A stretch of 26,149 nt of DNA from a virus. The DNA lies in the IMG/VR virus record IMGVR_UViG_3300042544_001153, positions 1 to 26,149 of that record. One strand, given 5' to 3'. The notes below the pieces were generated by a model, which was given only the letters and a program-made list of their open reading frames with translations, searched no databases and was not told the origin of the DNA. Position numbers and translations under genes: made by a program. Below, in pieces: positions 12,101 through 14,147 of the stretch (position 1 is its first letter; every line of letters starts with the position of its first letter).

Positions 12101-12428
12101 TCTCTGAAAGCTTTGACAGGTTCTGCAAACCATTTTCATTTTGTGCTAAAACAATTAAGTGATTGTAAATTTGATCCTCGTCTGCACGATCTTTTCTTGC
12201 TCTTTTGTCCAAACGATCTGTTGTAAAATATGCCTCTAATCCCAAAATAGGTTTTACAGAACTGTTCTTTGCAGCAACTAATAAATCTCTATGACCGCTT
12301 AAAGTACCATGATCAGTAATAGATATGGCACCCATACCAATCTCCTCTGCTCTTTTAAGCAGTTCTTCTGGAGAAGAGAAGCCGTCTAGTAGGCTGTAGT
12401 AAGAATGTGAATGATGATTGTGAAACAT
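9165..12428 (-). CDS. dnaE: DNA polymerase III alpha subunit (DnaE type) with PHP domain
   Basis: 1087 residues. The PHP domain at the N-terminus has a histidine-rich start (His3, His5, His6, His8 before SYYSLLDG), ITDHGTLSG (38-45), YNHLIVLAQNENG (88-100) and VTLDCHY (201-207), so its metal site looks largely intact and may support proofreading. The C-family polymerase core has GPGRGSAAGS (376-385), PDIDTDY with catalytic Asp418 and Asp420, and KIDALGL with Asp565. Fingers, an HhH region and an OB-fold C-terminus follow; the bacterial tau-binding tail is absent, which explains the shorter length (E. coli 1160). It replicates the phage genome with the helicase, primase and SSB encoded upstream. 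The ATG at 12428 has GGAG four bases before it. Confidence 0.95.
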   Translation of the reverse strand: MFHNHHSHSYYSLLDGFSSPEELLKRAEEIGMGAISITDHGTLSGHRDLLVAAKNSSVKPILGLEAYFTTDRLDKRARKDRADEDQIYNHLIVLAQNENGLQNLSKLSEIGWNDGFFSKPRIDFEVLQENSKDLIVLSGCMNSIIAKAIQNGNMDAAKRHTDWFKQVFKDNFYMELQPHNPAELNLQMLKLADDMGVKSTVTLDCHYASPEDKIAEEIMLILGTHPKVLKEATFDDSRKIKDLIERLDYLYGDRFMSFKDLDIFLMDHKTVRDKMIDQGIDRDDLYENSMEISSKVGSYDLKENLDLLPVDHKDPNSELERLAMEGLIKRGFGEDKVYLDRLKEELEIIKSKNFSSYFLVVSDMIGWSKNNNIFVGPGRGSAAGSLVCYALEITEVDPIKFGLLFFRFINPERNDFPDIDTDYEDRKRGQVKDYLAEQYKHVASIATFLTFKDKGVVRDVARVFHIPLPEVNKALKGVETWDDFISDKSTAEFRQKYPEVVKYAERLRGRIRGTGMHAAGIVAAKDNISKYAPMETRKDTQSDDRVQVVAVDMEQAADIGLIKIDALGLKTLTVIHDAMDMIEERQGVKLDLRKIDLTDREVYADLTAGFTKGVFQAETTPYTNLLVKMGVYNFDELAASNALVRPGAMNTIGAEYIARKKGKKPVKYLHDIVKDFTKDTYGCILYQEQVMLACVHLGGMSMAEADKVRKIIGKKKDAKEFDKFKDQFVKGASKHITEKQAESLWHDFEAHAGYSFNKSHAVAYSMLSYWSAWIKRYYPHEFMYSLLKNEKDKDTRTDYLIEAKRMGIKIRLPHINESDLDFTLEEKSIRFGLGNIKYISENISKKIIDQRPFYSYAEFMEHATKKGSGINSRAVDALNRVGAAAFNDNQRTGEENKNFYEYLNIPEFHTDIPRWIEAYTRPIEEYEEEGCFLVIGMVKAIKRGDGWSRIEVVDKTGSVGVFDRSETTIEAGKMYIFLIADNRIGAFATPEDLKDTSNPFIKYLMSRTLSLGDKEYMVISFTPRKTKKGDKMANVVLADEDKDLYSVVVFPTAYAESLVRMKPGGVCKPILNTTSSGSVTVKGFERV

Positions 12429-12444
12429 TTATCTCCAATAATAG

Positions 12445-12479
12445 TTGGGGGCAGTAAGATTATATCCTACTGCCCCCAA
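12445..12479. repeat. Perfect 12-bp inverted repeat over the dnaE promoter
   Basis: TTGGGGGCAGTA (12445-12456) and TACTGCCCCCAA (12468-12479) are exact reverse complements, separated by an 11-base loop. The -10 box of the dnaE promoter lies within that loop. It is GC-rich in an AT-rich genome. There is no T-tract on either side, so it is not a textbook intrinsic terminator. It could be a repressor operator, or a hairpin in read-through RNA from the SSB gene. Confidence 0.85.
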
Positions 12480-12488
12480 GTCTGTCAA
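12459..12488 (-). promoter_or_regulatory. Consensus promoter for dnaE
   Basis: The minus strand reads TTGACA (12483-12488), an 18-base spacer, then TATAAT (12459-12464); both hexamers match the sigma70 consensus. The predicted start near 12452 gives a leader of about 24 bases with the GGAG ribosome site. The -35 touches the SSB stop codon region. The spacer and the initial transcribed bases are the two arms of the inverted repeat. Confidence 0.8.
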
Positions 12489-12489
12489 A

Positions 12490-13146
12490 TTACCACTCAG
12501 AGGAGGTAGATACTGAATCGTCTGCATCTAGACCAGAGTAGAATGACTCTTGGTCTGCATACTTAACCGAACGAATTGCAGTTTTTTCTAATTCATATTG
12601 CTCAACGGATGACCAGTCAAATGCTGTTTCATCTACTACTAGTGGGAACAAGGCATAGCTTGTCTGAGTACCTGTACCTGAACGCTTTAAACGCCATGTA
12701 AGGTTACTGATAGCACCTGTATCACTTGCATATTCAATTAGTGTTTGTGTTGTTACTGACTTAGGACCAACGCCCTGTGACCAAATTGCGGTGTACTGTT
12801 CTCCAGTACCATCATCAACTAGTACGTTTGCATAAAGTCTTAGACGAGCCTTCCAGCCAGCCTTTGGATCTCTGCGGTGCATTTCGCAACCGTGACAGCG
12901 ACCTTCTTCTTCCATGCTACATACAGCCTTACGGCGATAGTCTTTTGGATTTGTGTGTTCTGCGACTACAATTGCTAATCCACGAGATGTGTCATAGTTC
13001 TTTGAGTCTGGATCAACTTCGTTAACAAAACGAAGCTTGATTGATTGTCCATCTTCTAGCTTTAGCCATCGGGCTTTTGGACCGTCAGATCCCTTTGGCT
13101 TGTCAATGTGACTCTTGATTGCATCAAGACCCTGAATGATACCCAT
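12490..13146 (-). CDS. ssb: gp32-like single-stranded DNA-binding protein
   Basis: 218 residues. The protein resembles T4 gp32-type phage SSBs: an N-terminal lead, an OB-fold core with aromatic and basic strands (RWLKLEDGQSIKLRFV, KARLRLYANVLVDD), an internal zinc site of pattern His64-Cys76-Cys84-Cys87 (VAEHTNPKDY, CSMEEEGRCHGCEMH), and an acidic, Ser-rich C-terminal tail (SGLDADDSVSTSSEW) of the kind that recruits replication partners. It coats template strands for the polymerase and helicase. The ATG at 13146 has AGGAG six bases upstream. It has its own strong promoter, as fits a protein needed in large amounts. Confidence 0.88.
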   Translation of the reverse strand: MGIIQGLDAIKSHIDKPKGSDGPKARWLKLEDGQSIKLRFVNEVDPDSKNYDTSRGLAIVVAEHTNPKDYRRKAVCSMEEEGRCHGCEMHRRDPKAGWKARLRLYANVLVDDGTGEQYTAIWSQGVGPKSVTTQTLIEYASDTGAISNLTWRLKRSGTGTQTSYALFPLVVDETAFDWSSVEQYELEKTAIRSVKYADQESFYSGLDADDSVSTSSEW

Positions 13147-13190
13147 ATATTTCTCCTAATATTTGATTCTATAAGTGAATCTGTTGTTTT

Positions 13191-13219
13191 ATTATATCAG
13201 AGTTGTAGAGCAATGTCAA
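13191..13219 (-). promoter_or_regulatory. Strong consensus promoter for the SSB gene
   Basis: The minus strand reads TTGACA (13214-13219), a 17-base spacer, then TATAAT (13191-13196) preceded by TGA, giving an extended -10. This is a perfect sigma70 match with optimal spacing. It overlaps the last codons of the primase gene. The start near 13184 gives a leader of about 38 bases that contains AGGAG and a small GATTC/GAATC dyad (13165-13181). Confidence 0.85.
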
Positions 13220-14147
13220 ACTCTGATAGCATTTTGTACGAACTTAATATTTGTTCGTCTGTCATATCTCCAATGTCTTTTACGCCATCTGGAAAACTCA
13301 TATTTGATGTTGGAATAGATACGTTGCTTGAAATATTTTTTCTTAACGTGCTTCCTGCATCGTCTTGGTCCATTGCTAAAATTAATCTAGAAACATACTT
13401 GTTAATTAATTGTATTTGCATCTTGCCAAGATTTGCACCTAGCGTTGCTACTGCTGGAATTCCTAATTGCCACAACCTAATTGCATCAAAGGATGACTCT
13501 ACAATTACAACCTCCTTATGTAAAACATTATTTAAGTTAAACAAGATCTTATTTCTTGGAGTTCCCGTAGAGTTCTTAAAAGTCTTTCCTTCAATTGATC
13601 TACCAACAAATCCAACACATATTCCAGTGTTAGAATAAACTGGGACAGTAACCATGTCTTGTTTTTCAGAGTACCCTAGCTTAAAATTTTTGATTGAATC
13701 TAAATTAATTTTTCTTGATTCAAAATATTCTATTGCACGAGTATTTTCTAGTAGTGTGGAGTGAAGTCTTTCAATTGTGTTTAAATCAAATTCAACAAAC
13801 TCTGGTTTTTCTTCTACTGCTTTATCAATTACATCTACAAAGTCTATAGATTTTTCTGCAGCAGAAATAACACGCATTGCTTCAAAGTAGTTTCTTGATG
13901 TTGTACGCATAATTAAATCTAATAGCGTTCCGTTTTCCCCACAAGAAAAACAGATGAACAATCCCTTTTCTTTATCTACTTCACATGCTGGAGTGTGTAC
14001 GTTGTAATGAAATGGGCAGTATACAAGAAAGTGAGTGTCTAACTCAGTTCCTATTGAGATTCCGCAGACTTTGACAATTTCTCTAATCTGGTCTTGCTGG
14101 TATGAATCGCTGGTATAAGCCTGTTTCCTAAAACTCCCTTGTAACAC
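13197..14147 (-). CDS. DnaG-type primase (zinc finger plus TOPRIM)
   Basis: 316 residues. The zinc-binding domain is YCPFHYNVHTPACEVDKEKG then FICFSCGENGTLLDL, with ligands Cys44, His47, Cys66 and Cys69. The TOPRIM catalytic core is VVIVESSFDAIRLWQLG (Glu217, Asp221), AVATLGANLG and LILAMDQDDAGS (Asp260, Asp262, Asp263). It synthesises RNA primers for DnaE. It is about half the length of bacterial DnaG, because the C-terminal helicase-binding domain is missing. The start is uncertain: GTG at 14147, preceded by AAGG, is the only good in-frame start before the zinc finger, and it overlaps the upstream gene by 97 bases. Confidence 0.9.
   Translation of the reverse strand: MLQGSFRKQAYTSDSYQQDQIREIVKVCGISIGTELDTHFLVYCPFHYNVHTPACEVDKEKGLFICFSCGENGTLLDLIMRTTSRNYFEAMRVISAAEKSIDFVDVIDKAVEEKPEFVEFDLNTIERLHSTLLENTRAIEYFESRKINLDSIKNFKLGYSEKQDMVTVPVYSNTGICVGFVGRSIEGKTFKNSTGTPRNKILFNLNNVLHKEVVIVESSFDAIRLWQLGIPAVATLGANLGKMQIQLINKYVSRLILAMDQDDAGSTLRKNISSNVSIPTSNMSFPDGVKDIGDMTDEQILSSYKMLSEFDIALQL

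Follow-up and report, generated by a model that had tools for sequence, protein, structure and literature searches.

At the boundary between the genes for a single-stranded DNA-binding protein (ssb) and a DNA polymerase III alpha-like protein (dnaE) of an uncultured phage, a consensus promoter and a strong RNA hairpin occupy the same bases. Comparison with relatives demonstrates, at the level of sequence, that the promoter is conserved as well as matched to consensus and that pairing of the hairpin is under selection in the sense RNA. At this actinobacteriophage gene boundary, the hairpin is probably a terminator or attenuator of the ssb transcript, overlapped by a promoter that would restart transcription for dnaE.

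Genomic context and likely hosts

The window (the whole 26-kb stretch of DNA that was analyzed) is a fragment of the genome of an uncultured freshwater phage, with 37% G+C and a minus-strand gene block in the order helicase-primase-ssb-dnaE-RecA-like. The same gene order is found in the Stanwilliamsviridae and in Rhodococcus phages, some of which have an HNH gene inserted before dnaE. A DNA-level search of the region against isolated phages gave no match, and relatives were therefore gathered via proteins. Two scans of viral contigs yielded ∼105 ssb-dnaE regions and later, with isolates included, 87 distinct gaps; in the clade of the window, SSB identities are 61 to 100%. Because the SSB relatives among isolated phages belong without exception to Streptomyces or Rhodococcus phages (136 records), and because WhiB genes are present in 8 of 12 related contigs, the hosts are likely to be actinobacteria. 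Rfam searches gave no match anywhere in the window, nor in 12380-13260 under permissive settings.

Table 1. Positions of ssb, dnaE, and the elements between and upstream of them
Feature	Position	Strand	Basis
dnaE, DNA polymerase III alpha-like, 1087 aa	9165..12428	-	ORF; phrog_405, 1049 bits
Shine-Dalgarno of dnaE (GGAG), not part of the hairpin	12433..12436	-	
T-rich tail CTATTATT, imperfect, interrupted, 5 T in 8	12437..12444	-	Flagged by terminator scan
3' arm TACTGCCCCCAA, spanning the predicted start (~12452, inferred)	12445..12456	-	Perfect 12-mer
Entire stem-loop, 16 RNA pairs	12445..12479	-	Fold and covariation
-10 hexamer TATAAT, between the hairpin arms, 18-bp spacer	12459..12464	-	6/6 consensus
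5' arm TTGGGGGCAGTA, within the promoter spacer	12468..12479	-	Perfect 12-mer
dnaE promoter -35, TTGACA, 1 bp past the ssb stop	12483..12488	-	6/6 consensus
ssb stop TAA	12492-12490	-	
ssb, single-stranded DNA-binding protein, 218 aa	12490..13146	-	ORF; phrog_9721 SSB, E 3.8e-48
ssb-leader hairpin GATTC-ACTTATA-GAATC, upstream of the Shine-Dalgarno	13165..13181	-	Covariation
ssb promoter TTGACA-17-TATAAT, TG ahead of the -10	13191..13219	-	-10 position conserved in relatives

A promoter nested in a hairpin

Past the ssb stop codon (12492-12490), the minus strand reads TTTGACAGACTTGGGGGCAGTAGGATATAATCTTACTGCCCCCAACTATTATTGGAGATAAATG. As the first-pass annotation had stated, both hexamers of the dnaE promoter are consensus, TTGACA and TATAAT matching at 6 of 6 positions each; together they give a 12/12 match to vegetative sigma (sigma-70/SigA) hexamers, at a distance within the usual 16 to 18 bp. 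The perfect 12-bp inverted repeat that it described, with the -10 between the arms, was likewise recovered (12479-12468 and 12456-12445), one arm filling the spacer and the other lying across the initially transcribed region, given a start near 12452 that was placed by its distance from the -10. The arms are separated by 11 nt that hold the -10 and can be extended to 16 nt with 94% complementarity, the sole mismatch being a G-U pair in RNA; the RNA stem thereby pairs into part of the -10 and leaves a loop of 3 nt. The hairpin begins 10 nt past the ssb stop and ends 16 bp ahead of dnaE.

As is typical of intrinsic terminators, this GC-rich stem-loop lies directly 3' of a gene, and its pairing is under selection in the transcript. 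It had been characterized as lacking a T-tract, which is correct insofar as the tract is imperfect, but the tail CTATTATTGG contains 5 T in 8 nt and the site is flagged by a terminator scan. The fold has a predicted energy of −30.2 kcal/mol (z = −4.65; equalled by 0 of 200 shuffles), and the stem-loop within the 63-nt segment from promoter to ATG reaches −27.8 kcal/mol. It is the only non-self-overlapping pair of arms of at least 12 bp in the window.

The proposal that the hairpin is an attenuator could apply to RNA arriving from ssb but not to the transcript of dnaE itself. An attenuator of the latter kind would have its promoter upstream of the whole hairpin, whereas the predicted start lies in the 3' arm, and RNA starting at 12452 shows no significant structure (z −0.08). 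Since dnaE RNA lacks the 5' arm, the hairpin would act only on RNA from ssb.

Conservation in homologous gaps

Both hexamers are strongly conserved: among 23 homologous gaps, the -35 reads TTGA in all and TTGACA in 18, and the -10 reads TATA[A/C]T in 22. The spacer is 18 bp long in 21 of these gaps and 17 in the other 2, even though flanking distances vary, a constancy which indicates that the promoter is held by selection. Every gap of the clade in which the -10 lies in the loop has a -35, a spacer of 17 to 18 bp, and a -10 of the form TATA[A/C]T or TATTCT, surrounded by a stem of 13 to 17 pairs.

The hairpin is preserved in a different manner. In an alignment of 18 distinct homologous gaps with a 15-pair helix, whose sequences are related so that counts do not represent independent events, 94.1% of the cells are paired (78.5 ± 1.6 in shuffles and 43 to 59% in slid controls), 42 cells are altered on both sides (13.8 in shuffles), and compensatory changes occur at 10 of the 15 pairs. 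The dnaE Shine-Dalgarno GGAG is invariant in all 18. Of the cells without a Watson-Crick pair, most (34) hold G-U as read on the sense RNA and only one holds A-C, which is what wobble on the other strand would look like; selection thus acts on the sense RNA rather than on a DNA dyad. Among gaps whose SSBs are 61 to 73% identical, arm sequences differ freely while pairing stays. Hence, of the two outcomes that the first-pass annotation had left for alignment to decide, the arms covary as RNA pairs, but their sequence is not conserved. Its predictions that read-through RNA from ssb would fold the hairpin and that dnaE could be controlled apart from ssb agree with the conservation, in these gaps, of the stem and of a separate promoter nested in it.

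Distribution among related phages

In most lineages the hairpin is located directly 3' of the ssb stop, including cases where a tRNA or a small ORF separates ssb from dnaE, and it is also present in isolates of Streptomyces and Rhodococcus phages. On this evidence, the hairpin belongs to the 3' end of ssb. Four registers were distinguished: the -10 in the loop (the clade of the window, L113-L115, L037, and L025), the -35 in the loop, with the promoter over the 3' half of the hairpin (Loccivirinae isolates and the L045 group), the promoter downstream of the hairpin (Boydwoodruffvirinae and L036), and a hairpin without a promoter (L122, L116, L021, the L024 group, and a tRNA group). On an SSB tree of 86 rows, with registers called partly by eye from the listed gaps, the minimum number of changes is 7 for presence of the hairpin, 9 for promoter-bearing versus promoter-less hairpins, and 13 for the four registers.

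In distant relatives whose ssb is immediately followed by dnaE (for example, L022, L023, L034, and L058), hairpin and promoter are both missing, whereas nearly all near relatives retain both, L122 and L116 having the hairpin only. The refuting condition named in the first-pass annotation, related phages of like gene order without repeat and promoter, thus has a mixed outcome. This distribution indicates that the element is not needed for the ssb-dnaE gene order but is maintained where present. Of 13 hairpin-only relatives, 12 lack a promoter of at least 9/12 in a stretch comprising the final 250 nt of ssb and the gap; dnaE would then need read-through in these phages, so that the hairpin there could not be a full terminator. 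In five relatives (L039, L041, L064, L069, and L080), a tRNA-like sequence stands right behind the ssb hairpin, which has a T-poor tail; perhaps ssb and the tRNA share a transcript that is cut at the tRNA.

The sequence behind the stem varies with the register. Tails of 9 nt contain on average 4.4 to 5.0 T in the overlapping registers, 2.2 behind promoter-less hairpins, and 1.4 before tRNAs. In about 6 of 7 pairs that are independent by phylogeny, T-richer tails go with a promoter (median sign-test p 0.03), although the association is partly confounded in the register with the -35 in the loop, where the tail is itself promoter sequence. Limited to hairpins with the -10 in the loop versus hairpin-only lineages, the comparison gives just 3:0, too small a subset.

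Proposed mechanism and alternatives

Where transcription starts, that the hairpin terminates or attenuates, and how strongly ssb and dnaE are expressed relative to each other are our inferences from sequence, and the following scheme is to be read accordingly. Polymerase coming from ssb would transcribe the full G-rich/C-rich stem and then the imperfect U-rich tail, whereupon the hairpin would terminate or attenuate the ssb transcript and the mRNA would keep a folded 3' end. Over the same hairpin, the vegetative-type sigma promoter TTGACA-18-TATAAT would re-initiate transcription for dnaE. With its start in the 3' arm, the dnaE RNA would contain half a stem, form no hairpin, and leave the Shine-Dalgarno exposed. 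Under this scheme, ssb RNA would be abundant, and dnaE would be expressed independently of it and probably at a lower level.

The main rival to the terminator/attenuator reading is 3'-end stabilization, in which ssb and dnaE share a read-through transcript and the hairpin acts mainly as a barrier that shields the ssb mRNA at its 3' end, or as a hairpin for processing. More ssb than dnaE would then be made without termination, and the promoter would merely add dnaE RNA. SSB is needed in greater quantity than polymerase, as this explanation would accommodate, and relatives with T-poor tails and no promoter must be read through if dnaE is to be expressed. The imperfect U-tract also counts against a terminator, and evidence on termination at mycobacterial hairpins without U-tracts is reported to be conflicting (PMC5335608). 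Conversely, tails are T-richer in the promoter-bearing lineages, as termination predicts, and we regard 3'-end protection as the main function as rather unlikely, though it is by far the strongest of the alternatives.

The other explanations fare much worse. The first-pass annotation had suggested an operator at which a dimeric repressor blocks polymerase at the dnaE promoter. A perfect dyad does overlap that promoter, but the half-sites drift in sequence while pairing persists, with G-U kept and A-C not, and the hairpin is retained without the promoter in L122, L116, and the L024 group. Moreover, no further arm copy within 1 mismatch occurs in a 93-kb near-twin contig, where the arm is single, and none above chance occurs elsewhere in the window; a repressor operator is accordingly very improbable. 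No more credible is a function as DNA, that is, a cruciform or folded single strand that serves replication or drives or inhibits transcription. A strong, perfect palindrome adjoining replication genes would suit such a role, but the 34 to 1 wobble bias toward the sense strand is unexpected for double-stranded DNA, and in a folded single strand the -10 would sit in the loop with an unpaired -35 beside the stem, so that the promoter duplex would be destroyed instead of formed. Least probable of all is a chance overlap of an ordinary hairpin with an accidental promoter match. Sites resembling a -10 are common in A+T-rich phage DNA, and at loose thresholds 25 promoter-like sites are seen against 31.6 expected, but perfect TTGACA-N16-18-TATAAT sites number 2 in the window against an expectation of 0.02, and the arrangement is kept in the 18 distinct homologous gaps and across the deep SSB tree. 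On the evidence of this conservation, the chance reading is refuted for the clade of the window, where functional irrelevance is its only possible form.

Promoter-hairpin overlap at other genes

Among 108 distinct post-stop hairpins in related DNA, a promoter matching at 10/12 positions or better is found near 36 in the sense direction versus 5 in the antisense direction, a signal that comes mostly from homologous ssb sites. Hairpin arms look the same from either strand, so antisense counts were taken as the control. The -10 lies mostly in the loop or 18 to 30 nt downstream. For 58 hairpins at genes other than ssb, a hexamer is inside the hairpin in 10 sense versus 2 antisense cases (promoters of at least 9/12). 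Examples of overlap are G001 64739-64762 (TTGACA-18-TATAAT) and a site before tRNA-Lys in phage Comrade (TTGACA-18-TATACT). Overlap of terminator-like hairpins with promoters recurs in related phages.

Several individual sites deserve mention. A hairpin at L168:1583-1610 (minus strand) may be an independent occurrence of the register with the -10 in the loop: it carries a TTGACA-17-TATATT promoter whose -10 is in the loop, and it lies just ahead of a tRNA-Thr gene. Four post-stop hairpins at non-ssb genes (L135:5039-5062, L139:18216-18243, L151:7495-7519, and L171:44759-44791) carry a -35 within the 5' arm or the loop, followed just downstream by a -10.

The ssb leader

A second hairpin is found in the ssb leader, usually 7 to 11 nt ahead of the Shine-Dalgarno. 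It consists of a 5-bp stem and a 7-nt loop (A-Y-N-U-A-U-A in most, with U-A at positions 4-5) and is present in 58 of 84 distinct leaders compared with 11.6 in shuffles. Covariation is seen at each of the 5 pairs in a set of 21 distinct copies, with 100% of cells paired, a percentage that is biased because the copies were chosen for pairing; the choice alone does not explain the excess of two-sided changes (35 versus 9.2 in shuffles). Among the long contigs scanned, 10 have one copy each that is followed by a start region, located at ssb, and 3 further matches bear no resemblance to the ssb-leader hairpin. Homologues are present in L134, L139, L145, L148, L154, L160, L164, L172, L177, and L180; Rfam has no match to the element.

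The leader hairpin is a candidate translational operator for SSB autoregulation. Gp32 of phage T4 represses its own mRNA via a folded leader element beside a less structured, A/U-rich initiation region (PMC535899), and the ssb leader is similarly laid out, with binding by SSB here only putative.

A 10-bp inverted repeat (TATCAGAGTT/AACTCTGATA; 13195-13228, minus strand) overlaps both hexamers of the ssb promoter and is largely kept in near-identical contigs. It was rejected as a candidate second operator because relatives ∼70% identical in SSB lack it; it is probably a strain-level feature or due to chance.

Known systems and significance

Streptomyces phage phiC31 is reported to have Rho-independent terminators that lack poly-U tails (Ingham, Hunter and Smith 1995, as cited in PMC5335608 and PMC8355165). 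Like these, as the citing papers describe them, and like mycobacterial "I-shaped" hairpins, the ssb-dnaE element is a GC-rich hairpin just past a stop codon with a weak or no U-tract; it is set apart from them, within those descriptions, by a near-consensus promoter inside the hairpin, with conservation of both. The extended start-associated sequences (ESAS) of Cluster K mycobacteriophages are also inverted repeats that lie in a short gap just ahead of the translation start of an actinophage gene, but each genome contains many of them, and RNA pairing found little support with the authors who described them (PMC3203893), whereas the dnaE-promoter hairpin is single in the genome and its pairing is strongly kept. 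Similarly, the intergenic dyads of Cluster O mycobacteriophages are 17-bp palindromes, invariant in sequence and present in >30 copies, as for a DNA-binding site (PMC4351075), while the ssb-dnaE hairpin drifts in sequence and keeps its pairing; many consensus copies per genome, as in ESAS and Cluster O, are not seen for it. A further likeness is to the Stanwilliamsviridae (Comrade, Gilson, Circinus, and Blueeyedbeauty), which share the gene order up to ssb, the post-ssb hairpin, and an overlapping promoter-like site; they differ in having the -35 rather than the -10 in the loop and an HNH endonuclease gene next, before dnaE. Literature searches for phrases on promoters inside terminators returned nothing relevant.

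A broader and more doubtful proposal is that ssb is an autoregulated cistron, repressed by SSB via the leader hairpin and closed by a 3' terminator that holds the dnaE restart promoter, and that such promoter-in-hairpin modules are general. If so, shut-off of ssb would not silence the polymerase, and these modules would separate neighboring genes while shifting among registers (-10 in the loop, -35 in the loop, or promoter downstream). The ssb-dnaE gap is a gene boundary at which a terminator-like hairpin and a promoter share bases, the RNA stem being selected, as its covariation shows, despite carrying the promoter, and it would make two adjacent replication genes separately expressible within ∼60 bp. 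Such terminator-promoter overlap may be overlooked in the annotation of actinophages, and the relatives, with hairpin and promoter, hairpin alone, or neither, form a natural series for following how the quality of U-tracts and restart promoters may coevolve.
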